DNA of 33,489 nucleotides from a virus. A program made the position numbers and the translations under genes. Position 1 is the first letter of the stretch. Every line of letters starts with the position of its first letter. The stretch spans positions 1 through 33,489 of IMG/VR virus record IMGVR_UViG_3300032180_000026; one strand, written 5' to 3'. This document shows positions 2,376 through 29,730 of this stretch, one piece after another. The notes under the pieces are model-generated. The model was not told the DNA's origin, searched no databases, and saw only the letters and a list, made by a program, of their open reading frames with translations.

Positions 2376-3208
2376 GCAACGAAGTCACCGTACTGCCCCA
2401 GGAACTGATCGTCGCGCGCCCGCCGGAGCTGGTACTCGAGGAGGCTCGCCGCGCCGCCGTCGCGCTCAAAGAAGTGATCGACCGAAAGCCCAACCCGGTC
2501 CTGTTCAACGGGGAGAAGTACCTCGAGTTCGAGGACTGGCAGACTGTCGGGCGTTTCTACGGAATCTCTCCCCGCATCAAATCGACCAACTATGTCGAGT
2601 TCGGAGAGATCAAAGGCTGGGAAGCGCTCGCCGACGCCGTGCAAGTGACGAGCGGCAACGTCGTGTCCAGCGCTGAGGCAATGTGCCTGAACGACGAGCC
2701 GAAGTGGAGCGCGCGGCCGAAGTACGAGTGGCACTACGTGAAGAAGTCCGGCGGAACGTCCGCCGAAGATCCGGGCAGCGCGGAGCTGATCTGGGAAAAA
2801 AGCCCGGACGGAAAGAGCCGGCCGAAGAAGCAGCGCGTGCTCGCTGGCGACGAAGCGGTGCCTCTATTCCAGCTTCGCTCTATGGCGCAGACGCGCGCTT
2901 GCGCGAAGGCCATGCGAAACGCGCTCGCGTGGGTGGTGGTGCTCGCCGGCTTCAAGCCCACGCCTGCAGAGGAACTGGACATCCCGGCGCGCAACATGGG
3001 CAATGCCGAGATCGTTCAGGAATCGTCCGTCAAGGTAGCACCCGAGCAGCTCGAGGCCATCCATGCGGCGATGTCCGAGTGCGGTGTGTCGATGGAGGCG
3101 CTGCTCGCCAAGGCCGACCTGAAGGACCTGAAGGACATGGACGCCGACGAGGCGCCGGGTGCGATCAAGTGGATCCGCAAGCAGAAGAAGACGGCGGTGG
3201 CGACATGA
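2372..3208 (+). CDS. Conserved phage protein, possible ssDNA-annealing family
   Basis: This 278-residue protein contains a segment of the type FNGEKYLEFEDWQTVGRFYG and later FQLRSMAQTRACAKAMRNAL followed by WVVVLAGFKPTPAEE. The 'MAQTRA-KA-RN' helix followed by a hydrophobic strand is seen in widespread phage proteins that resemble Rad52/RecT/Erf-type single-strand annealing proteins. I infer a role in recombination or DNA metabolism but cannot separate this from other uncharacterised families. The C-terminus has a short acidic/basic helical tail (KADLKDLKDMDADEAP) like a small UBA- or HeH-type end domain. Start and stop overlap neighbours by ATGA. Confidence 0.6.
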   Translation: MSNEVTVLPQELIVARPPELVLEEARRAAVALKEVIDRKPNPVLFNGEKYLEFEDWQTVGRFYGISPRIKSTNYVEFGEIKGWEALADAVQVTSGNVVSSAEAMCLNDEPKWSARPKYEWHYVKKSGGTSAEDPGSAELIWEKSPDGKSRPKKQRVLAGDEAVPLFQLRSMAQTRACAKAMRNALAWVVVLAGFKPTPAEELDIPARNMGNAEIVQESSVKVAPEQLEAIHAAMSECGVSMEALLAKADLKDLKDMDADEAPGAIKWIRKQKKTAVAT

Positions 3209-3330
3209 ACAAGGAAGAACTAAAACTCGTGGCCGCTCTGGACAGCCTGTACGCCGCGGGTTTCTCCGAGGAGCAGATTTCGAGAACGGCACAGAAGCTC
3301 GGTTTGAGCTGGTGGCCGGGGCTTCGTTAG
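3205..3330 (+). CDS. 41-residue helical protein
   Basis: The frame MNKEELKLVAALDSLYAAGF continues EEQISRTAQKLGLSWWPGLR. It resembles a single helix-turn-helix-like fold (helix, SEEQISRTAQKLGLS), perhaps a truncated DNA-binding element. It starts in ATGA overlap with the preceding gene and ends in TAG followed by a 43-nt gap. Function unknown. Confidence 0.5.
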   Translation: MNKEELKLVAALDSLYAAGFSEEQISRTAQKLGLSWWPGLR

Positions 3331-3373
3331 GTACACGACGAAGGCAATTAACTGATTTTCATAGGAGAAATTG

Positions 3374-3805
3374 ATGACCACTGAAGCAGAAGTAGTCGAG
3401 AAATCTGCAACCGACCTCGCCCGCGAATACCTCATGGGCGAGTTGATGAGCGCCGCAACCCGGCAACTTCGCTCGCTGGAAAAGCCGTGGCTGCGCTTGC
3501 CCGAGGAGCAGCAAAAGAGGGTGCTGCGCGAGGTTCAGGACGATGTAGCGAAGGCGGTAAGGGCTGCGGTCGAGTTGATCGCCAGCGACGACAGGACGCG
3601 ATTCAGAGCAAGCGTGGAGTCCGTTACGTTCAAGGATGGCGTCAAGGCGGTGCTGACGATGTTCAACACCGAAGAGAGCCATGAGCTTGCGGACACGACC
3701 GGCAGCAGCGTCCTCGTGGTGATCGAGAACCCGAGCCGCTACACCTACGTCGGGGAAAACGCGCCAAAGGCCGACGCGAATCAGCCCGAGCTTTCCGCCG
3801 CGTAG
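3374..3805 (+). CDS. Conserved phage protein of unknown function
   Basis: This 143-residue protein has a helical N-terminal half (LMGELMSAATRQLRSLEKPW, LPEEQQKRVLREVQDDVAKA) and a strand-rich second half (ASVESVTFKDGVKAVLTMFN). The layout is familiar from proteins near annealing/recombination genes in phages, but no function is known to me. ATG 3374 is preferred to TTG 3371 because it is 7 nt from AGGAG. The leader TTTCATAGGAGAAA is repeated before the next gene. Confidence 0.6.
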   Translation: MTTEAEVVEKSATDLAREYLMGELMSAATRQLRSLEKPWLRLPEEQQKRVLREVQDDVAKAVRAAVELIASDDRTRFRASVESVTFKDGVKAVLTMFNTEESHELADTTGSSVLVVIENPSRYTYVGENAPKADANQPELSAA

Positions 3806-3860
3806 GTAATCGCCGCAATCCCCTGGGTTGTCGAACCCCGTAATTTCATAGGAGAAAACG

Positions 3861-4199
3861 ATGTTCGTAGAAGAGAAAGCAGTAGGAGAATCGGTGCCGG
3901 TCAAGGTCGGCATGCTGAAGATGTCTGCGGCCATGCGGATCGGGGCAGTCATGCGCCCGCAATGCACTGGAGAGTGGTTTTTTGATGGCCGTAGCTGTGC
4001 TCTTGGTGCGGCATTCGAGGGCGCCGGAAGAATGAACGAAGTGCTTTCGTACAAGCGAGAGACCGAGGCATGGCCCTATTCACAAGTTGCCGAAGTGTTC
4101 GGCGTCCACTACTTGATTACCGATCAGGTTTACAAGCGCAATGACCGAGGCGAGACCCGCGAGTCCATTGCCGACTGGCTGGAGTCGCAAGGGCTGTGA
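3861..4199 (+). CDS. Phage protein of unknown function
   Basis: The 112-residue protein starts MFVEEKAVGES behind the duplicated ribosome site TTTCATAGGAGAAA (3844-3857). It contains WFFDGRSCALGAAFEGAGRM and a C-terminal stretch ending TRESIADWLESQGL. The pattern 'G..CALGA' is shared by many small phage proteins of unknown role. The stop overlaps a 12-codon mini-ORF that leads into the methyltransferase gene. Confidence 0.6.
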   Translation: MFVEEKAVGESVPVKVGMLKMSAAMRIGAVMRPQCTGEWFFDGRSCALGAAFEGAGRMNEVLSYKRETEAWPYSQVAEVFGVHYLITDQVYKRNDRGETRESIADWLESQGL

Positions 4200-4234
4200 C
4201 TCGGGCTTTCTCCTTCGACACGGCGACGGCATGA
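4196..4234 (+). CDS. Relay mini-ORF (12 codons) before the methyltransferase
   Basis: GTG at 4196 overlaps the preceding stop (GTGA). The frame MTRAFSFDTATA ends with a TGA that overlaps the methyltransferase ATG (ATGA). It fills the whole 31-nt gap. Neither the mini-ORF nor the methyltransferase has a strong Shine-Dalgarno sequence, so it could carry terminating ribosomes to the next start. Confidence 0.4.
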   Translation: MTRAFSFDTATA

Positions 4235-5151
4235 AGCCCTTGGCAATCGACCTTTTCTGTGGGCTCGGCGGCTGGACCGAAGGGCTGCTCGCGGAGGGCT
4301 ACTACGTGGTCGGCTTCGACATCGAGCGCCACCAGTACGGCGAGGCCAAGTATCCGGGGCAGCTCGTCCTGCAGAACGTGCTGACGCTGCACGGCCGGCA
4401 GTTCAAGGATGCCGCGCTGATCGTCGCCAGCCCGCCCTGCCAGGCGTACAGCTACCGTGCGATGCCGTGGAAGCGTGCCAAGGCGTTGCCGCCCCCGGAT
4501 AACTCGCTATTCGAGGCGTGCTTCCGGATTCAGCGCGAGGCGATCGAGGCGGCCGGGCACTTCATCCCCCTGGTCGTCGAGAACGTCCGCGGAGCTCAGA
4601 AGTGGGTAGGCCGGTCCCGCTGGAACTTCGGCAGCTTCCACCTGTGGGGCGACGTGCCGGCGCTGATGCCGATGACGAAAGCGGTAAAGGTTACGACGAT
4701 GGGCGCGGGCTGGTATCCGCCAGGTCATCCGAAGCACGTTCCTGGGCTTGCATTCAACACGCATGCCGAACGCGCCATCAAGAACAGCGGCGGGTCCTGG
4801 TTCAACATCGCCCATAACACCACGAGCGGGCACGGTCAGAATCCTGACGGAAGAAAGACGACCGGGCACGTCAACAAGCGCGACGGTCACGGCCACACGC
4901 GCCACCTGACGAACCCGGCCGAGCACATCAAATGCGGCGGTATTGATCTAGGCGACAAAGGTTTCAATGTCCAGGCCGCAGAGCGATACGGTCATCTGGT
5001 GGAGGGCGTGAAAATCAAACGCAGCGAAGAGGACAAGCGCCAGCATATCGGCGTCAAACGGAAATTCGCGTCCGCCATGATCGCCAAGATTCCCGCCGTG
5101 CTGGCGCAGCACATCGCACGGGCTTGGAAACCGGAAGCCGTCGCTTTATGA
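4231..5151 (+). CDS. Orphan C5-cytosine DNA methyltransferase
   Basis: This 306-residue protein transfers methyl groups from S-adenosylmethionine to C5 of cytosine. Motif I (DLFCGLGGWTEG, residues 7-18), motif IV with the catalytic Cys70 (SPPCQAYS) and motif VI (ENVRG, 117-121) are present. The C-terminal KRKFASAMIAKIPAVLAQHI fits motif X. A His/Gly-rich region in the middle (about 190-230) may be the target-recognition part; a classical QxRxR motif VIII was not seen. No restriction enzyme is adjacent, so protection of phage DNA from host restriction is the likely role. ATG 4231 is chosen because motif I follows at once; an upstream in-frame ATG (4141) lies inside the previous gene. Confidence 0.85.
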   Translation: MKPLAIDLFCGLGGWTEGLLAEGYYVVGFDIERHQYGEAKYPGQLVLQNVLTLHGRQFKDAALIVASPPCQAYSYRAMPWKRAKALPPPDNSLFEACFRIQREAIEAAGHFIPLVVENVRGAQKWVGRSRWNFGSFHLWGDVPALMPMTKAVKVTTMGAGWYPPGHPKHVPGLAFNTHAERAIKNSGGSWFNIAHNTTSGHGQNPDGRKTTGHVNKRDGHGHTRHLTNPAEHIKCGGIDLGDKGFNVQAAERYGHLVEGVKIKRSEEDKRQHIGVKRKFASAMIAKIPAVLAQHIARAWKPEAVAL

Positions 5152-5167
5152 CTGACCAAGCCCCGGC

Positions 5168-5347
5168 TTACCGCTTGCTGGCGCGGTCCAGGACGGCCCT
5201 TACCCATGCGGCCAGCTTCAGCCCCCTGCGGGCGGCGGCGGCGGTATACGCCTCTTTGCGGGCCTCTGAGACCCTGATTTCGAGCCGCTCTTCCTCCCCC
5301 TCCCCGATGCGGGGACGGCCTGGGGGGCGCTTCTCTGCTTTGTCCAT
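5168..5347 (-). CDS. Ribbon-helix-helix repressor, divergent from 5430 gene
   Basis: This 59-residue protein has a basic tail (KRPPGRPRIGEG) followed by the strand EERLEIRVSEARKEAYTAAA and the helix KLAAWVRAVLDRAS, a textbook Arc/CopG-type ribbon-helix-helix outline. It is convergent with the methyltransferase gene (17-nt gap) and divergent from the gene at 5430. The minus-strand promoter has a perfect TATAAT with a 17-bp spacer, and its expected transcript start falls on the ATG, so the mRNA is probably leaderless. Two TGT..GTACA boxes in the shared control region suggest autoregulation. It is an independently regulated unit inside the rightward operon. Confidence 0.8.
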   Translation of the reverse strand: MDKAEKRPPGRPRIGEGEEERLEIRVSEARKEAYTAAAARRGLKLAAWVRAVLDRASKR

Positions 5348-5353
5348 GGCCGG

Positions 5354-5382
5354 ATTATATGTCCGTACAAAACTCTTGACAA
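5354..5382 (-). promoter_or_regulatory. Strong promoter for the RHH repressor
   Basis: On the minus strand TTGTCA (5382-5377) and a perfect TATAAT (5359-5354) are separated by 17 bp. Only six bases lie between TATAAT and the ATG at 5347. The -35 overlaps that of the forward promoter. Confidence 0.75.
5360..5369. promoter_or_regulatory. RHH operator box 1
   Basis: TGTCCGTACA, one base pair short of a perfect palindrome, lies in the spacer next to the -10 of the RHH gene promoter. It starts 44 bp before box 2. Confidence 0.55.
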
Positions 5383-5404
5383 GTGGAAATCAAGAGCCTA
5401 TTCT
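5376..5404 (+). promoter_or_regulatory. Promoter for the 5430 operon
   Basis: TTGACA (5376-5381) and TATTCT (5399-5404) have an ideal 17-bp spacer. Transcription would restart the rightward operon from here independently of the promoter at 1735. Confidence 0.7.
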
Positions 5405-5413
5405 GTACGTACA
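5404..5413. promoter_or_regulatory. RHH operator box 2
   Basis: TGTACGTACA is a perfect 10-bp palindrome that overlaps the end of the forward -10 and the expected transcript start. Occupancy would repress the 5430 operon. Confidence 0.58.
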
Positions 5414-5429
5414 TAACTAGGAGGCAACC

Positions 5430-5948
5430 ATGGAAGCAAAGAAGATTTCGAACATCCACGTAACCACGTCGAGCTATAGCAAGAGAGCATCGGCGAGTTG
5501 GCATGCGGACGGCGTTAAGTTCCACGTCTGGTTCGACATCGACACGCTGAAGCTGGACGACGATGCGGTGATCTACAAGAACCCGCTCGAAAACACCGAC
5601 AGGCGCGGCCCCGATTTCTTTGACACGCGGAAGCTGTCGCTCGATATACCCAAGAACGCGGAGACTGTACGGCAGGTATTCGAGGTAATTAAGCGCGATG
5701 GGTTGATCGCCAAAGCGGTCGCCTTCGAGAAGGAGAGGGAGCGCCAGAGGCTGGCCGCGAACAAGGAATTAAAGCGCCAGGAGAAGATCAAAGAAGCCGG
5801 CCCGAAGCTGCTCAAGGTGCTGAAGGATCTGACCGGAAAGATCGAGGTAATGGGCGGCTGCAAGCCGGAAGACTTCGAGGGCGAGGAAGCGTGGCCCGAG
5901 TTCGAGCGCGTAACCGAAATTCTCCGCGACCTCGGGGAGGACGCATGA
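5430..5948 (+). CDS. Phage protein of unknown function with charged coiled coil
   Basis: This 172-residue protein has a strand-rich first part (ISNIHVTTSSYSKRASASWH...FHVWFDIDTLKLDDDAV) and a long charged helix (AFEKERERQRLAANKELKRQ) likely to form a coiled coil, then an acidic end. The ATG follows an AGGAGG ribosome site 5 nt away. It is the first gene under the RHH-controlled promoter and ends in ATGA overlap with the next gene. No family was recognised. Confidence 0.65.
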   Translation: MEAKKISNIHVTTSSYSKRASASWHADGVKFHVWFDIDTLKLDDDAVIYKNPLENTDRRGPDFFDTRKLSLDIPKNAETVRQVFEVIKRDGLIAKAVAFEKERERQRLAANKELKRQEKIKEAGPKLLKVLKDLTGKIEVMGGCKPEDFEGEEAWPEFERVTEILRDLGEDA

Positions 5949-6247
5949 GCCGGGCTTTGAGCACGGAAGAAGGAGTGGCAAAGCGCGTTCGCGTTTCCGT
6001 CAAGGCGGACGACATCAAGTACGGCGCGGCGACCATGTGCAAGTGGTGTCCGATCGCATTGGCAATCAAAGATATCCCCTCGACGAACGACGTAAATGTC
6101 GGCGTTTCCATCGTTCGGATCAATGACGTGCCGTATCAAATGCCGCCCCGTGCCATAGAGTTCATCGCGGAGTTTGATCTCGCGGCCGAGGAGAATCGCA
6201 AGCCGCGGGTCAAGCCGTTCACGTTCTACCTGCGCAAATGCAAGTGA
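5945..6247 (+). CDS. Phage protein of unknown function
   Basis: This 100-residue protein (MSRALSTEEGVAKRVRVSVK...) contains a Cys pair (MCKWCPIALAI) in a region resembling small phage proteins that list 'C..CPiAlA'. It may be a compact alpha/beta protein that binds a ligand or metal; this is inference. ATG overlaps the previous stop (ATGA) and the end overlaps the next gene by 10 nt. Confidence 0.55.
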   Translation: MSRALSTEEGVAKRVRVSVKADDIKYGAATMCKWCPIALAIKDIPSTNDVNVGVSIVRINDVPYQMPPRAIEFIAEFDLAAEENRKPRVKPFTFYLRKCK

Positions 6248-6711
6248 ACAATCCCCACAGCTACAAAAGCGCGGACGACTTGCTCATCAAAGATGACGAG
6301 GTCAACTACCAATTTCAGGACGACGAGCTCGGCATCGCGCTGGAATGGGAATGGGAAGGCTGCGGCGGGAGGCTGTGGTTCCGCAATGAAGATTTGGTGA
6401 AGCTCTCGGCTTGGCTGAAGACACGCTCGGGGTCACCACCGGAGTCGAACCGCGACAAGATCATCGAGGAATGCGCGGCGGTTGTCGAGTCTCGCGCAGG
6501 CAACGGGCCGTATGCCGAGAGCATGGGCGCCCATCGCGTCCTCACGTCAGCAGCAGACGCGATCCGCGCCCTCAAGAATGCAGCGCCGCAGGGTCAGACC
6601 GCGTTAAAGAGTCAGGCTAACCCGAACACCGACACGGGGAGTCACGCCCCCGGCCCTGCGGCTGCTGCACCGGGCATTGATGCCACACACAACGACGGAG
6701 AAAAGAAATGA
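6238..6711 (+). CDS. Phage protein of unknown function
   Basis: This 157-residue protein has an acidic first half (DDLLIKDDEVNYQFQDDELG), a central helix DKIIEECAAVVESRAGNGPY...RVLTSAADAIRALK, and a Pro/Ala-rich tail (HAPGPAAAAPG). The middle motif IIEECA...ADAIR is common in phage proteins of unknown role that occur in accessory operons. The stop overlaps the next ATG. Confidence 0.55.
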   Translation: MQVNNPHSYKSADDLLIKDDEVNYQFQDDELGIALEWEWEGCGGRLWFRNEDLVKLSAWLKTRSGSPPESNRDKIIEECAAVVESRAGNGPYAESMGAHRVLTSAADAIRALKNAAPQGQTALKSQANPNTDTGSHAPGPAAAAPGIDATHNDGEKK

Positions 6712-6968
6712 AACGCGAAGGTGGAGCAGCATTCCCGCGTCCTGCTGGCTGGAACGGCCTCAACAGCATCGACGAGCATTCCGGCAACGAGGCCGAGGAC
6801 GGCATGTCCCTGCGCGACTACTTCGCGGCGCAGGCCATTGTCGAGTGCATCCGGGTCGCGGCCGATCAAACTCCCGGCGATGATCCAGTCCTTACCGAGC
6901 TGTTCGACAAAGCGGCGGCGTATGCCTACTACGCGGCCGACGCCATGCTGAAAGCGAGGGCCAAGTGA
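6708..6968 (+). CDS. Conserved small phage protein (GMSLRDYFAAQA type)
   Basis: This 86-residue protein carries DGMSLRDYFAAQAIVECIRV and ends with AYAYYAADAMLKAR. This 'GMSLRDYFAA...YA.ADAML.AR' signature is very common in small proteins of proteobacterial phages, without a known function. Its ATG overlaps the previous stop and its stop overlaps the next GTG. Confidence 0.65.
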   Translation: MKREGGAAFPRPAGWNGLNSIDEHSGNEAEDGMSLRDYFAAQAIVECIRVAADQTPGDDPVLTELFDKAAAYAYYAADAMLKARAK

Positions 6969-7318
6969 CGCAATCGTCTACCCCATACGACCAGGCCGCA
7001 CTGGACGCAGCCAGCCGCGAAGTCCACATGATGCTGCTACGTGAAGGCAGCAATTGGGGGACCAAGGCGTGCGAGGAAATGGGCCGCGTGTTCATGACCG
7101 CATACCGCAACGCGCTCCCATCGGAGACGAAGGACCGAGACGCCATCCGCTATCGGGCCTGGCGCGACGGTGACGTAGTTGTGCGTCGGTCGATGAACGG
7201 CGGCGGCTGGGAGGCCCGTCACTCGGATTCTCCAAATTGGGACGTAGGTAGCTGGCACTGGCGAGAATCGCTGGACGAAGCGATCGACGAAGCCATGAAA
7301 GACGGAGGCCCGCTGTGA
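6965..7318 (+). CDS. Phage protein of unknown function
   Basis: This 117-residue protein uses GTG in a GTGA overlap. It has an N-terminal helical part (YDQAALDAASREVHMMLLRE) and a C-terminal segment RDAIRYRAWRDGDVVVRRSM that recalls the 'D..RyRw.R' motif widespread in small phage proteins of unknown function. It ends in another GTGA overlap. Confidence 0.58.
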   Translation: MTQSSTPYDQAALDAASREVHMMLLREGSNWGTKACEEMGRVFMTAYRNALPSETKDRDAIRYRAWRDGDVVVRRSMNGGGWEARHSDSPNWDVGSWHWRESLDEAIDEAMKDGGPL

Positions 7319-8289
7319 ACGATCCACAACAGTTCGATAAGCACGACCTCTCCGCGCCCTCCGACGAAACGATGGCGTGGCTGGCATCGCTGCCGAGCGG
7401 CAAGCTGGTCAACGTACTGATGGACGCCGGGCGCATCTCTCATCGCCCAGCGGACATGAGCATGTTGGCGCAGTTGATCGAACGCATTCGCGCTCCTTCA
7501 TCTGCCATAGAACCCGGCGAAATAGAGCGGCTTCGCAAGGAAAACACGATCCTGCGCGGTCTGGTGCAGCATAACCCGGAGTGGAAATGCACCTACGGCT
7601 ATCTCGATGCCGACAAACAGCCGCTCAAGGCAATGGGCTTCTGCCCGCTTGGCTTTCCGGGCTGCGGCTGCGCCGACGATCTACTTAATGCCGAAAGCGA
7701 AATCGCAGTCGCCGACGTAGAAAGCGCGCTTTCATCCCACGAACAGGCGCCCGACAACACAAGCGGCGACCTCGTTCGACAACTCGAAACGGACAGAGAC
7801 GCGGCCCGCGCCAACGCCGATTACTGGCGCCGGAAATATCACGAGGACACTCCTTCGTCCTCTACCAAACCGCGTCTTGTGGACGTAGGCACGCAAGAGA
7901 ACGCGGAAAAGCGAATTGCTGAGCTTGAGCGCGAGCTTGCCATCGCCGACGAACATGCGCGCGATTATCAAGCAGAAATTGCCGCTCTGCTAGGTAAGGG
8001 AGATCGGCCATCCGACGATACCGAGAAAGCGCTTCTTCGTCGAACCATTCGAGAGCTTCAAGCGCATTCGTCCGCAATAGAACCCCGGAACACTGACCCG
8101 CACGGCCTGCTTCCGCTGCTCGCGCCGTTCTACGGACTGACGCCGATGGACGCCGCCGATGTGCTGCGGATGCTCATCAAGGATGTCGAGCGCTTTCGCT
8201 ATACCGTGGGGAACAGTGGCGAGCCTCTCGATGCTGTGCGGGCACAGGTAGACGAGGAAATGCGTCGTTCAGACGGAAAAACCCCATGA
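7315..8289 (+). CDS. Large coiled-coil phage protein
   Basis: This 324-residue protein begins at GTG (GTGA overlap). It has helical, coiled-coil-prone stretches (EIERLRKENTILRGLVQHN; ENAEKRIAELERELAIADEH) and a central Cys-rich segment (FCPLGFPGCGCADDLL). The linker SSAIEP occurs twice (about residues 62-67 and 259-264), suggesting assembly from joined modules. The last 50 residues (DAADVLRMLIKDVERFRYTV) resemble the end of other small phage ORFs. It is the longest protein of the small-ORF cluster. Function unknown. Confidence 0.55.
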   Translation: MNDPQQFDKHDLSAPSDETMAWLASLPSGKLVNVLMDAGRISHRPADMSMLAQLIERIRAPSSAIEPGEIERLRKENTILRGLVQHNPEWKCTYGYLDADKQPLKAMGFCPLGFPGCGCADDLLNAESEIAVADVESALSSHEQAPDNTSGDLVRQLETDRDAARANADYWRRKYHEDTPSSSTKPRLVDVGTQENAEKRIAELERELAIADEHARDYQAEIAALLGKGDRPSDDTEKALLRRTIRELQAHSSAIEPRNTDPHGLLPLLAPFYGLTPMDAADVLRMLIKDVERFRYTVGNSGEPLDAVRAQVDEEMRRSDGKTP

Positions 8290-8486
8290 AACTCACGCCG
8301 AAGCAGCGCGTCCTGATGGTCCATCGGAATGCGTATTCGCGCTGGCTTCTCATGTCAGAGGCCGAGAGTCAGCCGGTAGCGATCATCACCATCAGTGGCG
8401 AGGGTCGCGATATTGGAGTTGGCTTCACGGCCGCCGAGGCATGGGCGGATGCGGATCGCCGTATTAAAGGAACAACGCCGCCATGA
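8286..8486 (+). CDS. Small phage protein of unknown function
   Basis: This 66-residue protein (MKLTPKQRVLMVHRNAYSRW...) has the pattern LTPKQRVL and ends with AAEAWADADRRIK, a form seen repeatedly in small phage accessory proteins. ATGA overlaps at both ends support translation. No function is known to me. Confidence 0.55.
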   Translation: MKLTPKQRVLMVHRNAYSRWLLMSEAESQPVAIITISGEGRDIGVGFTAAEAWADADRRIKGTTPP

Positions 8487-8767
8487 AAAGACAGCACCCG
8501 GTTCAGCCGCTCGTGCGGGATCACCTGGGCGTGGTCCGCTTCAAGGAAAACAAGATCGTCAGCCATCTTCTCGATTGGGCTTCGTCGCGCGGCATGAGTT
8601 TGAACGAGATTGCGATGATGGACTTCGACCGCGAGGATCGCCAGCAACTGGCTCAGCTCATCGGCTATTCGATCGGCGGGTATGGCGAGCTTTCCTACGT
8701 CACGGATCGAGCGTATGAGCGGGCAACGAATCAGCCCGTTCCGAAGAGCAAGGCCCGTGAAGCATGA
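8483..8767 (+). CDS. Conserved phage protein of unknown function
   Basis: This 94-residue protein contains VVRFKENKIVSHLLDWASSR, then FDREDRQQLAQLIGYSIGGY and GELSYVTD. This combination ('RFK.N.IV..LL', 'EDR.Q.AQLIGYS..G.GELSYV') recurs widely in phage and prophage proteins with no assigned role. It is in ATGA overlap with both neighbours. Confidence 0.65.
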   Translation: MKRQHPVQPLVRDHLGVVRFKENKIVSHLLDWASSRGMSLNEIAMMDFDREDRQQLAQLIGYSIGGYGELSYVTDRAYERATNQPVPKSKAREA

Positions 8768-9012
8768 CGAGGAGATCACCGCTTCGCAGCGGGGACAAGC
8801 GAATGGCTAAGAACAAGACACACAACGTCATCATCGGCCTCTACGCAGATGCCATGACGCCCGGGTTTAAGTGCCTGATCCTCGAAGGTGCGAGCCTTCG
8901 CATCGGCGGCGGCAAAGCTAGCGGCTCCTGGAATCTGCTGGAAAAGTTCAAATGCAGCTTCACGGACGACGATCTGAAACGGGCTCGTGTAAAGGGAGAA
9001 GGCGCGACATGA
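8764..9012 (+). CDS. Small phage protein of unknown function
   Basis: This 82-residue protein starts at the ATG that overlaps the previous stop. An internal in-frame ATG at 8803 (MAKNKTHNVIIG) is an alternative. The middle is strand-like (HNVIIGLYADAMTPGFKCLI) and the end is charged. No family was recognised. Confidence 0.45.
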   Translation: MTRRSPLRSGDKRMAKNKTHNVIIGLYADAMTPGFKCLILEGASLRIGGGKASGSWNLLEKFKCSFTDDDLKRARVKGEGAT

Positions 9013-9245
9013 GGGAATGGCTCGTCATCGAGGACAGCCGGAAAAACGGCGTGTTCATGGATAAGGCGCTGCTCAAGCCGACCGGCTACATCCCGCGAGA
9101 CGTTGCCGAGCGCTTGCTTGGGCGCAGGATGGACGGCACGCAATGGTTTACCAGCGAGGAGAGCGACTTGATGCGCGCCCAGCCGGAGTGGACGACGAAC
9201 ATGGATGTACTCGACAACCGCATTGAAATAGGGCTCAAGACATGA
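9009..9245 (+). CDS. Small phage protein of unknown function
   Basis: The 78-residue frame MREWLVIEDSRKNGVFMDKA ends GLKT. It is Trp-rich and mixed alpha/beta by eye. The start was chosen for the ATGA overlap with the previous gene; the end again overlaps the next ATG. Confidence 0.48.
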   Translation: MREWLVIEDSRKNGVFMDKALLKPTGYIPRDVAERLLGRRMDGTQWFTSEESDLMRAQPEWTTNMDVLDNRIEIGLKT

Positions 9246-9505
9246 GCGCAAATGCAATCGACCTTTGGCGCTGGGCTCGCGCTTACGCCAAGAAGCACGA
9301 GGACGCCGGTAGAGGCACGCAGTACCCGACGATGCGCGAGGCTACCAAGCGGTTCCGCTGCACGCTGGACGACATCGAGAACGTCATGGGCGATGATCTT
9401 GGCGAGGAGGACAGATACCTCGGGATCGCCGTTGCTGTCGGTGTCCATGGCGTTGGCTACGCCAACATCGAAACGCGCGGCGAGCAGTTAATCGAGGCGT
9501 ATTGA
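9242..9505 (+). CDS. Small phage protein with possible helix-turn-helix
   Basis: This 87-residue protein has YPTMREATKRFRCTLDDIEN in its middle, which reads like a winged-helix or helix-turn-helix recognition pair ('TMREAAKRF.c....IE'), and a C-terminal GIAVAVGVHGVGYANIET. A DNA-binding role is possible but weakly supported. Its stop shares one base with the ATG of a 12-codon mini-ORF. Confidence 0.5.
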   Translation: MSANAIDLWRWARAYAKKHEDAGRGTQYPTMREATKRFRCTLDDIENVMGDDLGEEDRYLGIAVAVGVHGVGYANIETRGEQLIEAY

Positions 9506-9543
9506 TGAGCTTGATAGATAGCAAAACCCCGGAGAAAACATGA
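9505..9543 (+). CDS. Relay mini-ORF (12 codons)
   Basis: ATG at 9505 shares its A with the preceding TGA. The frame MSLIDSKTPEKT ends in TGA overlapping ATG 9540. Its last codons contain the ribosome site (CCCCGGAGAAAA) of the next gene. Confidence 0.38.
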   Translation: MSLIDSKTPEKT

Positions 9544-9899
9544 TCGAAACGAAGAACGCCGTCATCAAAGAAGCCGGGATCACGAACGACGATCACGGTT
9601 GCTTATCCGCGTGGCTCACGCTCGATTACGGCGATTTCGGTTGCCAGGGATTCGGCGGCTACGCGCTATATCTACCAAAGGGCTTTACCAATCACCGCCT
9701 GACTGGCCCCAATTACGCCGGGCACTTCATCTGGCGAGTGATGGAAGTCGCAGGGGTGTCGCGATGGGATCAGCTCAAAGGGAAAACGATCCGAGTCCGC
9801 GCCGAGCATGTGAAGGTCCATGCCATCGGGCACATCGTCAAGAACGATTGGTTCGAGCCGAGCAAGGACTTCAGCGATCTTGAAGAACAACGGGCGTGA
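9540..9899 (+). CDS. Conserved phage protein of unknown function
   Basis: This 119-residue protein has the widely conserved features GCLSAWLTLDYGDFGCQGFG, HFIWRVMEVAGVSRWDQLKG and IRVRAEHVKVHAIGHIVKND. Related phage proteins share the 'LDYG...QGFGGYAL', 'GVxxWxxLxGK.iRVrae' and 'aIGHI' blocks, but their role is unknown. It is preceded by AAAACCCCGGAGAAAA, a ribosome-site module repeated at 11182-11196. Confidence 0.68.
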   Translation: MIETKNAVIKEAGITNDDHGCLSAWLTLDYGDFGCQGFGGYALYLPKGFTNHRLTGPNYAGHFIWRVMEVAGVSRWDQLKGKTIRVRAEHVKVHAIGHIVKNDWFEPSKDFSDLEEQRA

Positions 9900-9928
9900 G
9901 CGCCTTTACTTCCACTAAAGCCCCGTGA
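9896..9928 (+). CDS. Relay mini-ORF (10 codons, MSAF type)
   Basis: GTG at 9896 overlaps the previous stop and the TGA at 9926-9928 overlaps the next GTG at 9925. The peptide MSAFTSTKAP resembles MSAFISNTTS of the mini-ORF at 12766. Confidence 0.42.
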   Translation: MSAFTSTKAP

Positions 9929-10113
9929 GAAAGCTCACCATCTACCGCGACGACTCCACCGTACAGGTGGTCTACGAGAACGTGAAACACTTCTTCTGGA
10001 CTGCCAACAACACGGTGCTAGCTATCGCCCAGGTCACGGACGAGACGACCGGCGCGCACCGATACATCCACTGGCCGCGCGAGCGGTTCTGCTGGTTCAA
10101 GGACGAGAAATGA
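9925..10113 (+). CDS. Small phage protein of unknown function
   Basis: This 62-residue protein (MRKLTIYRDDSTVQVVYENV...) starts at a GTG overlapping the mini-ORF stop. It is strand-rich with aromatic residues (KHFFWTANNTVLAI, YIHWPRERFCWFK) and could be a small beta-barrel. No family was recognised. Confidence 0.5.
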   Translation: MRKLTIYRDDSTVQVVYENVKHFFWTANNTVLAIAQVTDETTGAHRYIHWPRERFCWFKDEK

Positions 10114-10250
10114 ACAATGCTCCCGGCAAAGGGTCTGCGTGGACGCATGCAGAACCGAAACGAACCACTTGGAAGCCGCAAGGTGACGTGGGTTCAAATC
10201 CCACGGGTGAGCGCCTTTTCATATCATCAAACACCGAAAGGAAACCATGA
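10110..10250 (+). CDS. Short frame bridging two genes (46 codons)
   Basis: ATG at 10110 overlaps the previous stop and TGA at 10248-10250 overlaps ATG 10247. The peptide (MNNAPGKGSAWTHAEPKRTT...) is basic and of low complexity, so it may serve to pass ribosomes across the gap. The middle contains a tRNA T-arm-like hairpin at 10188-10204. The end encodes the next gene's ribosome site (CCGAAAGGAAACC). Confidence 0.35.
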   Translation: MNNAPGKGSAWTHAEPKRTTWKPQGDVGSNPTGERLFISSNTERKP

Positions 10251-10459
10251 AACACCTGTTGCTACAAGCAAAGCATGAAATCGAGAACCTGCGCCGCGAT
10301 AATCAGATCCTTCGGGCAAAGGTCGAAGTGGTCGAAGCCTTCAGCGCCGCGCTGCTCGGCCCGCGTCCGCCGCAAGGGTTCTCGCCGGATGTCGCATGGG
10401 CGCTCCAGAAAGCAGCCGACGAACTGCCGTCGCCGAACCCGGTCCCGGTCAGAGAGTGA
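10247..10459 (+). CDS. Small helical phage protein (EIENLRRDNQIL type)
   Basis: This 70-residue protein begins with a leucine-zipper-like helix (AKHEIENLRRDNQILRAKVE) and continues VVEAFSAALLGPRPPQGFSP and AWALQKAADEL. This form is widely distributed in small phage proteins of unknown role. Its stop begins a two-codon frame, GTG-ACG-TGA (10456-10464), which overlaps both this stop and the next GTG. Confidence 0.6.
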   Translation: MKHLLLQAKHEIENLRRDNQILRAKVEVVEAFSAALLGPRPPQGFSPDVAWALQKAADELPSPNPVPVRE

Positions 10460-10460
10460 C

Positions 10461-10718
10461 GTGATCTCGACGAAAGAAAAGCTCGCCCAAGTCCTGCATG
10501 CGGCCGGGCTGTTCGACCTGGAAGCCCTGGCCCGCCTTGGGCGCTTCGACGACTTCGAGAGCGAGTCGGCCACGCCTATCGTTGATCTGGTCGTCGCTCT
10601 GGAGAAGGCAAATCAACATGCGCTCGCTGAACGCGCTCGCAATGGCGAGTTCGATGCCTCGAAAGAGGAAGCCGAGAAATGGTACGCCAGCAGCGGCCAC
10701 CACCTGCTGAAGAAATAA
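10461..10718 (+). CDS. Conserved phage protein of unknown function
   Basis: This 85-residue protein begins at GTG 10461 (MISTKEKLAQVLHAAG). It contains RFDDFESESATPIVDLVVAL and AERARNGEFDASKEEAEKWY, both typical of a common small phage family of unknown function. The GTG is chosen because it coincides with the relay overlap GTGACGTGA and with the beginning of the conserved part. Confidence 0.6.
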   Translation: MISTKEKLAQVLHAAGLFDLEALARLGRFDDFESESATPIVDLVVALEKANQHALAERARNGEFDASKEEAEKWYASSGHHLLKK

Positions 10719-10749
10719 CGCAGCTTGACGACATACACGGCGACGGACA

Positions 10750-10983
10750 ATGAGCGACTACAGTAAATGGACGAACGAGGAATTGCAGGCGGCGCGCGAG
10801 AAAATAGAGGCAGAACTAGCGCACCGTCTGAGCGTACCTTGGGGAGCTGGGCGGCTGGTCAATCCTTCGGCCTACGGTTGCTGCGGTCGGATGCCGTGCG
10901 AACGCACCGCCTGTTCGGTAACTGGCCTTTCAGCCGAGACAGGCGGACTACATGGTCAGTGTGGAGATCACGACCGTGGCTGA
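10750..10983 (+). CDS. Small phage protein, Cys-rich tail doubtful
   Basis: The frame encodes 77 residues. The first 28 (YSKWTNEELQAAREKIEAEL) fit a common small phage helix. The rest is Cys/Gly-rich (YGCCGRMPCERTACSVTG) and could be genuine or the result of a frameshift. Its end overlaps the following gene by 32 nt. No strong ribosome site is visible upstream. Confidence 0.4.
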   Translation: MSDYSKWTNEELQAAREKIEAELAHRLSVPWGAGRLVNPSAYGCCGRMPCERTACSVTGLSAETGGLHGQCGDHDRG

Positions 10984-11203
10984 AATGCCGAGAGACGGAA
11001 CGCCGATTCTGGCCTACGTGGTAAATCGCCATGTGCAGGGCTGGCAGGTGATCCAGTACACCGGGCGCTACTGACAATCCGTTCCGGGCAAGTATGGCGT
11101 CGATAGAATCGTCCGCTGGGCATTTCTTCCTCCCGACCCGGATGAACTGGTCCAGCGCGTCGATACACCGTTACCTCAGTCAAACCCCGGAGAAAAATCA
11201 TGA
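10952..11203 (+). pseudogene. Phage gene with an in-frame TGA
   Basis: From ATG 10952 the frame reads MVSVEITTVAEMPRDGTPIL...VIQYTGRY, reaches TGA at 11072-11074, and then stays open to a TGA at 11201-11203. The continuation (QSVPGKYGVDRIVRWAFLPP) completes the usual 'PkDGTpvL...W..G.w......V..W..LP' pattern of small phage proteins. The distal stop overlaps ATG 11200 exactly as in neighbouring genes, which shows that the full 83-codon frame was the original gene. The TGA probably replaced a Trp codon; the stop is followed by C, a context associated with leaky termination. Confidence 0.6.
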
Positions 11204-11406
11204 GCTTCAGCATTCACTTTCAAGGCGAGGAACTATATATCACCGCTCCATCCTATCGGGGGATGACCGGCGAGGGCGGGCTATCCTTTGGAATGGGGAG
11301 CACGACCGTTTCCCTAACGCATCTGCTGCGAACCATCGTGCGCGAGGAAATAGAGACAGCGATGGAGCGCCAGTTCGCCGCATCAAACTCCGAGGAAAGA
11401 AAATGA
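11200..11406 (+). CDS. Small phage protein of unknown function
   Basis: This 68-residue protein (MSFSIHFQGEELYITAPSYR...) is preceded by the repeated ribosome module AAACCCCGGAGAAAA. It ends with a charged helix (RTIVREEIETAMERQFAAS). ATGA overlaps at both ends support it. No family was recognised. Confidence 0.5.
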   Translation: MSFSIHFQGEELYITAPSYRGMTGEGGLSFGMGSTTVSLTHLLRTIVREEIETAMERQFAASNSEERK

Positions 11407-11879
11407 GCGAAGTAATCGATGCTGTAAAGGAATTTTTCTCCGAAGCGCAGCAACCCGGAGAGGTAGCCCCAGCTCCGCCAAGCGAATTTCCTAAGCAGGG
11501 CGGCAGTGGCAGCGGCACCGAAACGTGCTACAGCGTTGAAGCTCGGTGCACGCACAAGCCGAAGCAGATCGGGGCCCAAATATTCGACGCGAACTGGCTC
11601 ACCGTCCAGTTTGACCATGTTGCTCCGCCGCTGGGAGTTCCGAGCGGACCACCATCGATGATGCGCGACAAGCTTGGTCTCTATGGCTATCAGGCGGCGC
11701 AGGCGTTGCGCTGGTGGTTCCACGCCAATGCGGCGGCCGGATGGCAGGACGGTTGTATCGAAACGCGCTTGGTGAAGCACGAGGTCAAATATTCGTATTC
11801 CAGCCAAGCGCTGTCCGCGCACGTCGCCATTGGTGGCGAGGATCGCTCCGGGGTAATGCCGGATTGGGGAAAGAAGTGA
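11403..11879 (+). CDS. Phage protein of unknown function
   Basis: This 158-residue protein has an acidic helical N-terminus (VIDAVKEFFSEAQQPGEVAP), a Pro/Gly linker, and a folded-looking part with GLYGYQAAQALRWWFHANAA followed by CIETRLVKHEVKYSYSSQAL. The ATG is set by the ATGA overlap; the stop overlaps the next GTG. I know similar proteins only as conserved phage hypotheticals. Confidence 0.55.
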   Translation: MSEVIDAVKEFFSEAQQPGEVAPAPPSEFPKQGGSGSGTETCYSVEARCTHKPKQIGAQIFDANWLTVQFDHVAPPLGVPSGPPSMMRDKLGLYGYQAAQALRWWFHANAAAGWQDGCIETRLVKHEVKYSYSSQALSAHVAIGGEDRSGVMPDWGKK

Positions 11880-12061
11880 GCGCATCGACTCTGGATAAAG
11901 CGAAGCGCCGGTACGAGCCCGGCGTCAGGGTTGAGCACTGGTTCGCCGGCAAAGGGACGATCTTAAAGGGCTGGTATCACACGGCGAAAGATAACGTCTA
12001 CGTGAAGTGGGACAAGGGCGGATGTGGACTCGCGTACAGGTCCGCGTGCAAGATCATATGA
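11876..12061 (+). CDS. Small basic phage protein, SH3-like outline
   Basis: This 61-residue protein starts at GTG 11876. RYEPGVRVEHWFAGKGTILK and KDNVYVKWDKGG are arranged like a small SH3/KOW-type beta-barrel ('G..V.h.f.GkGtI......vyVkWd'). That could bind nucleic acid or protein; this is inference from the strand pattern. Stop and next mini-ORF start overlap as ATGA. Confidence 0.5.
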   Translation: MSASTLDKAKRRYEPGVRVEHWFAGKGTILKGWYHTAKDNVYVKWDKGGCGLAYRSACKII

Positions 12062-12102
12062 GCCGCGCTTCGACCCTGAACGAAACCCCGAAAGGAGCAT
12101 GA
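12058..12102 (+). CDS. Relay mini-ORF (14 codons)
   Basis: ATG at 12058 overlaps the previous stop. The frame MSRASTLNETPKGA ends at 12102, one base before the ATG at 12104. It spans the gap and encodes the ribosome site CCGAAAGGAG near its end. Confidence 0.38.
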   Translation: MSRASTLNETPKGA

Positions 12103-12103
12103 A

Positions 12104-12484
12104 ATGCCCTGCGATTCTTCACACATGGAAGCAACTGGTTTCGAGGTAGCCATGAGCCGCGTGTTCCAGCTTCTGGACGAGCTGGACGGCAAGCCCATCG
12201 ACCCTAGCGGCTGGGCTGGATACGACCGTAGGGCCTACAACATGGGCATCTCCAGTCCGGCGGCCGATGCGGCGGTAGCGAAGCTATGTGCGGCCTGCGA
12301 GGCCCTAGGCCCTGCCATCAAGGGAAAATCCCTGGAGCTTCAGATGTGGTGGCGCGACCACCAAGCCGCGGACGCGAAGAAAAAAGCGGGAGCAGAGGAG
12401 CGCGCCAAGCAGGAAAACGAGCGCGAGAAGGCACTGGCGAAACTCAGTCCAGCCGAGCGCAAGGCTCTCGGGGTCAAGGACTAG
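12104..12484 (+). CDS. Phage protein of unknown function with charged C-terminal helix
   Basis: This 126-residue protein (MPCDSSHMEATGFEVAMSRV...) has a folded N-terminal part including FQLLDELDGKPIDPSGWAGY and a highly charged C-terminal helix (KKKAGAEERAKQENEREKAL). The preceding AAAGGAG is a good ribosome site. No family was recognised. Confidence 0.58.
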   Translation: MPCDSSHMEATGFEVAMSRVFQLLDELDGKPIDPSGWAGYDRRAYNMGISSPAADAAVAKLCAACEALGPAIKGKSLELQMWWRDHQAADAKKKAGAEERAKQENEREKALAKLSPAERKALGVKD

Positions 12485-12490
12485 GGCTCC

Positions 12491-12769
12491 ATGAGCGATA
12501 GAGCGAAGCTAGTTGAGGAATTGAACGCCGCGGGCTACGTGCGCTGCATCGTGTTGCCTACGGGCGAGCTGGCCGGTATTCAGCAAATGCTCTACACGAC
12601 CGGCCTATTCGTAGGCCTCGATCGCATGGGCTGGCGGACGCGGTTCTGCTACGAGCGCAAGGCGGATGCTGTCGCGGCGCTGGACGTGTGGGATGGCGTC
12701 GGCGATCCGCCTGGGCCGTGGATCAAAGAGAAGCCGAGCGATCGGCTCGGCCCCGGCGCGACCAAGTGA
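12491..12769 (+). CDS. Conserved phage protein of unknown function
   Basis: This 92-residue protein has the features QQMLYTTGLFVGLDRMGWRT, RFCYERKADAVAALDVWDG and DPPGPWIKEK. 'TTGLfVGLD...R.CYe...dA..AL..WDG.GDPPGPWIK' is a recognisable block of a common phage protein whose function is not known. The stop overlaps a mini-ORF that leads to the excisionase-like gene. Confidence 0.68.
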   Translation: MSDRAKLVEELNAAGYVRCIVLPTGELAGIQQMLYTTGLFVGLDRMGWRTRFCYERKADAVAALDVWDGVGDPPGPWIKEKPSDRLGPGATK

Positions 12770-12798
12770 GCGCCTTTATCTCAAACACGACGTCGTGA
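12766..12798 (+). CDS. Relay mini-ORF (10 codons, MSAF type)
   Basis: GTG at 12766 overlaps the previous stop. MSAFISNTTS ends in a TGA overlapping GTG 12795. Its start and size match the mini-ORF at 9896. Confidence 0.42.
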   Translation: MSAFISNTTS

Positions 12799-13154
12799 GC
12801 GCAGTCCTATCCCCACCGGATCTGTCGATCGACGAATGCGCCAAGGTTGCCGGCGTTTCGAGCTCGACCATCAAGCGCGACATCGCTGGCGGTAGCCTGA
12901 TTGCGACCAAGTACCGCGGCCGTACTAGAATCGCTGTAGCTGACTTCGAGGAGTACCGACAAAAATGCCGATCCGTCCACACGGACGAGGCTGGGAGGTT
13001 CGGGTCCAGCACCTTGGGGGTAGGGTTAGCCGCACGTTTAGGTCCTTCAAGGACGCGCAAGAATACGAGCGCCGGCACAAGCAGCAAATCGCGGATCATC
13101 GAGTTGGCCGCGCGCCGTCGTACTCGCTCGAGCAAGCCGTCGAACGCTGGTTAG
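12795..13154 (+). CDS. Excisionase-like HTH protein overlapping integrase
   Basis: This 119-residue protein starts at GTG 12795. LSIDECAKVAGVSSSTIKRD followed by GGSLIATKYRGRTRIAVADF and EEYRQK is a MerR/Xis-type winged helix (HTH_17 outline), as in excisionase-like proteins placed directly before integrases. The last 63 codons overlap the integrase gene in another frame (190 bp). The tail is Ser/Arg-rich (RTRKNTSAGTSSKSRIIELA), similar in style to tails of related proteins, so real two-frame coding is plausible. It likely bends attP DNA and directs excision. Confidence 0.65.
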   Translation: MSAVLSPPDLSIDECAKVAGVSSSTIKRDIAGGSLIATKYRGRTRIAVADFEEYRQKCRSVHTDEAGRFGSSTLGVGLAARLGPSRTRKNTSAGTSSKSRIIELAARRRTRSSKPSNAG

Positions 13155-13936
13155 ACGGGGAAGCGAAAGCCCTCAAGTCATACCGGAACCTCCTGGACAA
13201 GGTCCGGGCCATCCTGCCCCAAATTCAAGGGCGCAAGCTCACGGATGTCGCCGAAGCCGCGGAGGCGGTCATCCAGGCCGGCGCCGGGCTGAAGGTCGCA
13301 ACGATCAACAGACGCCTTGCAATCCTTCGCCGGGTCGCCCGGCTGGCTCATCGAAAGTGGAAGTGGCTGGAGCATGACGAGGCCGGCCGGATTCAGCTTC
13401 TACCAGGGGAGGAGCCGCGGTATGTCCAGGCGACCGAGGAGCAGGCCGTGAAGCTGTTGAGCGCGGCCAAGGGGCGGGCCAGGGCCGCGATCCTATGGGC
13501 GGCGAGCACCGGGCTCAGAAAAAGTGAGCTGCGGCGTGTCGAACCCCACCACTTCCAGGCCAACGGCTTGGCGGTCCTGAAAAAGACTAAGACGGGAAAA
13601 CCGCGCGTAGTGCCGCTGCAAGCCGGCCTGCGCCCCCAGGACTTCCCGTATGGGCTGACAGCCAGTGAGGTCGAAAAGGACTACAGGAAGGCCAGGGAAC
13701 GCGCTGGGATGCCGTGGCTGCAGTTCAGGGACCTACGGCGCACCTTCGGCTCGTGGATCGTCCAGCGCACGCGTAGCCTCAAGGCGGCGCAGGATCTACT
13801 CGGGCATACCACGATCGCCATCACAGCCGCCCACTACGCCCATCTGCTCGAGGGGGACTTGAGGAAAGCCGTAAGGACCCTCCCCATTTTCGCGGGGCTG
13901 GCGCGGGGCAGACAAAAGAAGAAGAAAGCGGCCTAA
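12965..13936 (+). CDS. int: Tyrosine-recombinase phage integrase
   Basis: This 323-residue protein integrates the phage at a tRNA gene. Residues 1-45 (GWEVRVQHLGGRVSRTFRSF) form the usual beta-sheet arm-binding start, 50-140 the SAM-like core-binding domain, and 150-315 the catalytic domain. Visible catalytic residues are Arg185 (TGLRKSEL), Lys212 (KTGKPRVVPL), Arg258 (RDLRRTFGSW), His281 (LLGHTT) and the nucleophile Tyr291 (AAHYAHL). The His that normally begins the HxxR motif is Arg255 here, an unusual change. The gene ends 16 bp before the tRNA-like attP core, and its last codons contain one of the presumed arm sites. Confidence 0.9.
   Translation: MPIRPHGRGWEVRVQHLGGRVSRTFRSFKDAQEYERRHKQQIADHRVGRAPSYSLEQAVERWLDGEAKALKSYRNLLDKVRAILPQIQGRKLTDVAEAAEAVIQAGAGLKVATINRRLAILRRVARLAHRKWKWLEHDEAGRIQLLPGEEPRYVQATEEQAVKLLSAAKGRARAAILWAASTGLRKSELRRVEPHHFQANGLAVLKKTKTGKPRVVPLQAGLRPQDFPYGLTASEVEKDYRKARERAGMPWLQFRDLRRTFGSWIVQRTRSLKAAQDLLGHTTIAITAAHYAHLLEGDLRKAVRTLPIFAGLARGRQKKKKAA
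13892..13909. repeat. Presumed integrase arm site, left of attP core
   Basis: GCGGGGCTGGCGCGGGGC lies in the end of the integrase gene and matches 14082-14099 at 17 of 18 bases in the same orientation. Each copy holds two GCGGGGC-like heptamers 11 bp apart, about one helical turn, as expected for paired arm-type sites. Confidence 0.5.
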
Positions 13937-13952
13937 GATGCTGTTTTACCTA

Positions 13953-14009
13953 TGGTGCCCAGGCCGGGAATCGAACCCGGATGACCTTGCGATCGAGGGA
14001 TTTTAAGTC
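13953..14009 (-). other. attP: attP core: 3' part of a tRNA-Leu(UAA) gene
   Basis: On the minus strand this segment reads from the anticodon loop (GACTTAAAATCC) through the variable region and T-arm (GGGTTCGATTCCC) to an encoded CCA. It matches the 3' portion of a bacterial tRNA-Leu(UAA). The sequence before the anticodon loop cannot pair with the TCCCT side of the anticodon stem and no 5' half is present, so it is not a functional tRNA. A 3' tRNA fragment beside an integrase gene is the standard form of an attachment core: integration would rebuild the host tRNA. Phage genes on both sides show that this is attP rather than attL or attR. Confidence 0.85.
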
Positions 14010-28719: not shown

Positions 28720-29730
28720 CTAGATGGTTACGAACGTATAGCCGGTGGCGACGGTGCAGGACTTGGGCTTGCCTAGAACGAACTCGAGCAGGCTCACCAC
28801 CGCGCCGATGTAGCCGAGCTGGTTGTTCGAGAGCGTTGACTCGAAGCCGGTGAAGGCGAAGGCGGCGCGCTCGTGGATGTAGAAGGCGCCGTAGCCCGCG
28901 TTGAAGTAGAACGCAGTCCCCTCGGTGATGTAGGGGTCGCAGTAGATCGGCACGCCGGCCACCATCAGAGCGCGAAACGCGGAGCGCGCGCCCCAGGGCT
29001 CCTGATCAAAACCCTTCTCAGGCGTGATGACGTAGCTCTCGTTCGGCAGGAAGTCGTTCGCAAGGGATTGCCACGTCGCGGGCCCCATGAGGCCGAAGGT
29101 CGGCAGCTCGCCGCAGTTCTTGAACGTGCCTGTGATGTTCTGCATCACGAGCGCGCGGGTCGGGGCGACGGTGCCCATCGCGTAGCGCTTGGACTTCAGC
29201 CACGTATTCGTGGTGCGGGATTGCCCACCGTACACGACGAGGTTCGTGCCGTCGTCGATGGCGCCATTAAGGCCGATGACCTGCTGCGTGTTCGTGATGT
29301 TCCCGGCGAGCGCTGTCGCAAGGCCATCGCAGTAGACGTTGCCGGCGTCGTTCATGCGCGCGGCCATGAGCGGGATAACATCGTGCGAGTCTTGGATCAG
29401 ACCCTCGAAGCCCAAGTACGGGATCGGGATCACGGCGCCCTTGAGATCGAACTCCAGGTTCGTGACGCCGGGCTGCACGACGGGCTGGTTGAAAGAGCCG
29501 TCGTAGCCGACCCACTGCATGTTGACGAACTGAGTTCCCTGCGCCGGAATCGTGACGCTCGAGACGCCGCCGGAGGCGGGCTGCGCGTTCGCGATGAGAG
29601 CCGCGGTTAGCGGGCTCGTGTTGTAGATCTGGACTACGAGCTTCTTGACGAAGGCTCGGCGGGTGACGTACTGAAGTTCGGTCCCCAGGGGGGACGCTGA
29701 TGGAATTACTCCTTGCCCCAAAACCGGCAC
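28720..29730 (-). CDS. Major capsid protein (HK97-fold, podovirus type)
   Basis: This 336-residue protein has features of phage major capsid proteins: FVKKLVVQIYNTSPLTAALI, GAVIPIPYLGFEGLIQDSHD, GNVYCDGLATALAGNITNTQ and C-terminal ALMVAGVPIYCDPYITEGTA, FYIHERAAFAFTGFES. It starts at GTG 29730 with AAGGAG 6 nt upstream. Its place directly behind a scaffold gene (with an HNH gene between) supports the call. It forms the icosahedral shell. Confidence 0.8.
   Translation of the reverse strand: MPVLGQGVIPSASPLGTELQYVTRRAFVKKLVVQIYNTSPLTAALIANAQPASGGVSSVTIPAQGTQFVNMQWVGYDGSFNQPVVQPGVTNLEFDLKGAVIPIPYLGFEGLIQDSHDVIPLMAARMNDAGNVYCDGLATALAGNITNTQQVIGLNGAIDDGTNLVVYGGQSRTTNTWLKSKRYAMGTVAPTRALVMQNITGTFKNCGELPTFGLMGPATWQSLANDFLPNESYVITPEKGFDQEPWGARSAFRALMVAGVPIYCDPYITEGTAFYFNAGYGAFYIHERAAFAFTGFESTLSNNQLGYIGAVVSLLEFVLGKPKSCTVATGYTFVTI

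Follow-up and report, generated by a model that had tools for sequence, protein, structure and literature searches.

Organisation of the region and its mini-ORFs

The window analysed here is a virus record of 33,489 bases. Its head and tail genes lie on the minus strand, and from ~3200 to 13936 the genes are small, tightly packed and mostly rightward. This is the accessory region adjoining the integrase gene (12965-13936) of a temperate-type phage. Directly 3′ of the integrase gene, the minus strand of 13955-14001 reads by eye as the 3′ end of a tRNA with CCA, and is probably the phage attachment site. The major head protein (28720-29730, minus strand) has 95 relatives in metagenomic viral contigs, at identities of up to 96%, and the portal protein matches just two GenBank phages (~40%); these matches are those of an environmental phage group that is common but little sampled.

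Stop and start codons overlapping by 4 or 1 bases, the arrangement of termination-reinitiation pairs, were found at 14 of the 27 rightward junctions in our own gene list (4-base overlaps in each case) and at both ends of six mini-ORFs. ATGA and GTGA overlaps occur at the majority of junctions and on both sides of most mini-ORFs, and 11 or 12 of the other junctions are gaps of the kind under study. The listed gap 10983-11200 is not a true gap, being occupied by a frame at 10953-11203 (MVSVEITTVAEMPRDGTPILAYVV...) that has one in-frame TGA near 11073 and a 4-base overlap with ATG 11200; this frame is a broken gene or a sequencing error. A ribosome-site module, TTTCATAGGAGAAA, is present twice, at 3359-3373 before gene 3374 and at 3846-3860 before gene 3861, the latter copy being common to the second phage record described below (G036).

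A sequence-only reading of the window had described seven small frames that fill gaps in the rightward operon, and all of its coordinates, codon counts and overlaps proved exact. Six of the seven (4196-4234, 9505-9543, 9896-9928, 10110-10250, 10456-10464 and 12766-12798) overlap both neighbours, and 12058-12102 stops one base short of the next gene. That several of them encode the ribosome site of the following gene is borne out for three of the seven (9505, 10110 and 12058), which contain the SD of that gene. The frames, together with a further copy of a repeat, are:

4196-4234, plus strand: mini-ORF of 12 codons (VTRAFSFDTATA), flanked by gene 3861-4199 and by a gene for a cytosine methyltransferase, 4231-5151 (identified by Pfam PF00145)
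9505-9543, plus strand: mini-ORF of 12 codons (MSLIDSKTPEKT), carrying the SD CGGAGAAAAC
9896-9928, plus strand: mini-ORF of 10 codons (VSAFTSTKAP), with 4-base overlaps at both ends; repeat copy of 12766-12798
10110-10250, plus strand: 46-codon frame, with 4-base overlaps at both ends, overlying a tRNA T-arm-like hairpin (10187-10204)
10207-10240, plus strand: third, partial repeat copy, inside 10110-10250 in a different frame
10456-10464, plus strand: 2-codon frame GTGACGTGA, filling a 1-base gap
12058-12102, plus strand: mini-ORF of 14 codons (MSRASTLNETPKGA), stopping one base before ATG 12104 and carrying the SD AAAGGAG
12766-12798, plus strand: mini-ORF of 10 codons (VSAFISNTTS), with 4-base overlaps at both ends

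The mini-ORF at 9505-9543 overlaps the stop of gene 9242-9505 by 1 base and ATG 9540 by 4 bases. Good SDs precede the starts at 9540, 10247 and 12104. The SD is weak or lacking at the other four starts behind the frames: 4231 (-2.1 kcal/mol) and 10461 (-3.3) have no good SD, and 9925 (-0.1) and 12795 (+0.4) have none. The 2-codon frame at 10456-10464 is automatic once both overlap contexts exist, and no relay of ribosomes is needed at 10461 because the gap is a single base.

The mini-ORF at 4196-4234 is set off from the other six by a leftward gene (5168-5347), ribbon-helix-helix-like with weak Pfam matches below the cut-off (NikA, TacA antitoxin), and by divergent promoter-like sites before gene 5430 (TTGACA-17-TATTCT rightward, TTGTCA-17-TATAAT leftward). 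The leftward gene and the overlapping divergent promoter-like sites (5168-5404) may be a self-regulated switch. As these elements intervene, 4196-4234 probably belongs to another transcript than the other mini-ORFs, and the description of all seven as lying in one operon probably does not extend to it.

The hairpin at 10187-10204 (CGTGGGTTCAAATCCCAC) matches the T-arm of the tmRNA model (E 0.002 in a 151-base search), and the 100 bases around it give a fold that roughly resembles a tRNA. The possibility that 10110-10250 contains a complete tRNA gene was rejected, as the T-arm-like hairpin alone matches and ARAGORN at default settings reported none. No Rfam match to a known RNA element was found in the gaps.

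The mini-ORFs at 9896-9928 and 12766-12798 represent a single 33-nt sequence in two copies, identical at 24 of 34 bases (~1e-5 per pair by chance). The partial copy at 10207-10240 matches them at 23/34 and 20/34 bases, respectively. Scanning viral contigs for the repeat motif GTGAGCGCCTTT gave 115 matches, with the double-overlap architecture in G036 alone. A tandem copy in another locus (L207) was rejected as repeated low-complexity sequence away from a junction, and no convincing further copy was found in 398 bacterial genomes, phages and plasmids.

Chance expectation and gaps in other phages

Every filled gap lies behind a TGA stop with A, G or T as the preceding base, and the stop before each of the four unfilled short gaps (after 3330, 3805, 10718 and 12484) is TAG or TAA. 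The left overlap is nearly free, because any such TGA includes a start codon, and the right overlap requires a start codon with A as the next base, as is the case for most starts in the operon. The remaining features of a double-overlap frame that are not free are its phase and its openness.

The sequence-only reading had called seven such fits unlikely by chance and had proposed shuffling as the test. Shuffling the gap interiors with length and flanks fixed gave 4.3 expected frames against 6 seen (P ~0.09-0.10), and chance is therefore not excluded by that test. When phase was randomised, ~1.4 frames were expected against 6 seen (P ~0.0003), and varying the phase with resampled flanks gave 1.2-1.8 expected (P 0.004 or less). 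All six double-context gaps are in the sole working phase, (1/3)^6 = 0.0014. The mini-ORFs at 9896-9928 and 12766-12798 are not independent, since they are copies of one sequence; with one repeat copy, the 1-base gap and the 46-codon frame left out, 0.7-1.2 frames were expected against 3 (P 0.01-0.11). The frames thus exceed chance nominally against randomised phase, and the excess weakens once the dependent and trivial cases are removed.

For comparison, 619 non-redundant gaps were collected from other phage loci with a simple gene caller, which is crude (in the window it took an upstream start, 4141, for the methyltransferase and overlooked 12795); starts in the comparison set are accordingly uncertain. 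Gaps of 21-60 nt in this set contained 6 double-overlap frames versus ~4.3 expected from phase-shifted versions, and gaps of 61-150 nt contained 12 versus ~3. The excess in the longer class is consistent with small genes that the caller overlooked; a double-overlap frame is present in 11 of the 20 gaps of 61-150 nt elsewhere that have both contexts. The phases of the 21-60 nt double-context gaps in other phages are even (5/5/6, and 9/8/9 in a larger set). These even phases and near-expected counts indicate no general mini-ORF excess in the 21-60 nt gaps of other phages (9/223 filled, 4.0%), where double-overlap frames turn up one by one. The window has 4 of 8 such gaps filled (Fisher 4e-4 against 9/223, for a window picked for its pattern; 3.4e-3 with the repeat pair collapsed, the choice of window still being post hoc). 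Presence of a mini-ORF showed no link with a weak SD in the other phages.

In the search for orthologous junctions, gene 9540 and the head protein proved to have relatives with different neighbours. Genes 3861, 9242 and 12795 gave no relatives, nor did the integrase in genomes, and no relative with the same gene order was found.

Junction sequences common to a second phage

The sole comparison phage found, G036, is a 46 kb record reached via the repeat-motif scan. It has 22 bases (AAGTGAGCGCCTTTATCTCAAA) identical to the first 20 of 12766-12798 and the two preceding bases, and these form the beginning of a mini-ORF of 33 nt that overlaps each neighbour by 4 bases, lying between ORFs of 70 and 62 aa and directly upstream of an ORF that reads as integrase. 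The 3′ halves of the two mini-ORFs differ.

Homologous proteins (6238, 6708 and a tail protein) account for some of the DNA common to G036 and the window, and tblastn of the operon proteins against G036 gave clear matches for 6238 and 6708 only, with weak matches for 5945 and 9242. Outside the clearly homologous proteins there are six patches of 22-73 nt with 85-100% identity (3317-3347, 3792-3863, 5944-5973, 10712-10745, 10962-10985 and 12764-12785). All six touch junctions, where junction zones make up 14.6% of the operon, and the genes around them differ between G036 and the window. The features defined at these patches, in addition to the mini-ORF at 12766-12798, are:

3317-3347, plus strand: boundary sequence around the stop of gene 3205-3330; 90% identity in G036
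3792-3863, plus strand: boundary sequence comprising the whole gap 3806-3860 and the SD; 90% identity over 73 nt in G036, with different genes
5944-5973, plus strand: boundary sequence comprising the 4-base-overlap start and first codons of gene 5945; 90% identity at a 4-base-overlap start in G036
10713-10753, plus strand: gene-start stub spanning the gap 10718-10750; the G036 counterpart is the ATGA start of a long gene
10962-10985, plus strand: boundary sequence at the gene start (V/M)EITTVAE; 96% identity to the start of a different 301-aa gene in G036

Conserved boundary sequences at the gene junctions of mosaic phages are mentioned in PMC3029335. Like these, the patches are short conserved junction DNA common to phages whose flanking genes differ. 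Unlike them, the boundary pieces of the window partly persist inside gaps as double-overlap mini-ORFs, a situation for which no description was found in the literature searched. The mosaic patterns of the two records look like the outcome of recombination at junction sequences.

The gap at 10718-10750 gives the clearest view of how a frame of this kind may arise. In G036, a gene of ~340 aa (339 from the ATG, 348 from an upstream start) begins, with a 4-base overlap, at the sequence ATGACGCAGCTTGACGA. The ATG of G036 is ATA in the window, where it supplies the TAA stop of gene 10461-10718, and the former frame continues to a TGA overlapping ATG 10750. The stub matches the G036 gene start at 18 of 21 bases, above all 77 control positions. 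On this alignment the gap resembles the 5′ end of a gene now absent, and it would form another double-overlap frame but for the lost start codon. Because the start codon has been lost while the frame runs on, a relay is not maintained here. Similar matches to gene starts were weak for 12058 and not convincing for 4196, 9505, 10110 and 10456. We infer from the gap at 10718-10750 that other mini-ORFs are similar stubs; of the seven, only 12766-12798, and through it the repeat at 9896-9928, has a G036 counterpart, which is itself a mini-ORF.

Origin and possible function of the mini-ORFs

The reading that best accounts for these data is that at least some of the mini-ORFs are 5′ stubs of replaced genes, which may passively relay ribosomes (probability ~0.55). 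Genes would be exchanged by recombination at short boundary sequences, the starts and ends of genes, and a replaced gene would leave behind its 4-base-overlap start and first few codons. Where the phase fits, the leftover start would run into the 4-base-overlap start of the newcomer, giving a mini-ORF that overlaps both neighbours; as 14 of the 27 junctions are 4-base overlaps, the contexts for double overlap are ready-made. With an in-phase stub in place, ribosomes ending the upstream gene could then restart passively; this effect would be most important at 4231, 9925 and 12795, the starts with a poor SD or none. The six junction patches, the stub match, the repeat pair, the G036 counterpart of 12766 and the uniform phase elsewhere argue for this origin. 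Against it, six of six frames in the working phase (0.0014) exceeds what a passive model predicts, and the G036 counterpart keeps its 33-nt length and both overlaps despite a differing 3′ half, which hints at constraint. Four mini-ORFs (4196, 9505, 10110 and 10456) also lack a convincing match to any gene start, and just one comparison phage was found.

Passive restart is plausible at 4231, 9925 and 12795 in view of published results on coupling, on delivery by short ORFs and on minigenes. Termination-reinitiation coupling at 4-base overlaps has been described (PMC6728339, PMC10666635), and differs from the situation here in that known pairs consist of two genes, whereas the window has a putative intervening frame of 2-14 codons with predicted coupling. 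In a review, short ORFs are suggested to deliver ribosomes to a coupled gene, and mycobacterial interspersed repetitive units (MIRUs) are given as an example from nature that may work in this way (PMC12548453). The mini-ORFs at 9896-9928 and 12766-12798 and the G036 copy fit the outline of MIRUs, as repeated intergenic sequences with a small ORF overlapping its neighbours; the likeness is one of outline, and here there are three full copies only (two in the window, one in G036), 33 nt each, in two phages rather than mycobacteria. Many dispersed, apparently mobile copies were not found among the 115 viral matches or in the 398 bacterial genomes. A two-codon minigene (mg2) upstream of txe raises txe translation (PMC8708949), and is similarly a very short ORF near the next start that can act in cis, but it carries translation signals of its own and its end lies 15 nt short of the gene, whereas the window frames overlap both genes.

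The sequence-only reading had proposed a relay under selection, in which a ribosome restarts at the mini-ORF and, after 10-14 codons, restarts again on the following gene, the frames being kept because they bridge gaps. This proposal is supported in part. The architecture is real and nominally above the phase-randomised null (1.4 vs 6), the filled 21-60 nt gaps are over-represented (4/8 vs 9/223), the weak-SD starts at 4231, 9925 and 12795 could use a delivered ribosome, and in reporter work coupling by termination-reinitiation is almost lost across gaps of ~20 nt (PMC10666635). For selection of the frames, however, the result of the fixed-length shuffles (P ~0.09), the weaker result without dependent or trivial cases (P 0.01-0.11), the uniform phase in other phages (9/8/9), where weak SDs and mini-ORFs are unlinked, the stub at 10718-10750 that has lost its start codon, and the good SDs of 9540, 10247 and 12104 all weigh against it. 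The evidence favours gene-swap scars at boundary sequences over a selected relay, which we consider fairly unlikely; if true, it would provide a simple route for new genes into a translationally coupled operon without breaking coupling. It is improbable that the repeat is a portable relay cassette (33 nt, 10 codons, VSAF..., 4-base overlaps at both ends) set between unrelated genes and coupling their translation, with length and phase held and the 3′ half drifting.

Chance would explain the pattern if, among TGA-ended genes rich in 4-base overlaps, a few percent of gaps contain such frames and a single run was noticed in a window picked for it. The ~4% of 21-60 nt gaps filled elsewhere, the single cases in other loci and the fixed-length mean of 4.3 of 6 are in keeping with this, but the phase-randomised and Fisher values (P ~0.0003 and 4e-4, both before correction) are not, and the repeat pair and its G036 counterpart are not chance, making this explanation quite doubtful. 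The 46-codon frame at 10110-10250 could be a small gene, as its length and two-sided overlaps resemble small genes in relatives (the 11/20 gaps above). That the frames, chiefly this one, encode microproteins is nonetheless very unlikely, given that 10110-10250 has no family match and reads through the T-arm-like hairpin; the 10-14 codon frames are too short for judging.

If the mini-ORFs are stubs of replaced genes, tiny double-overlap frames in phage operons would record past gene swaps, and further tests would be needed before such frames are regarded as genes or as selected elements.
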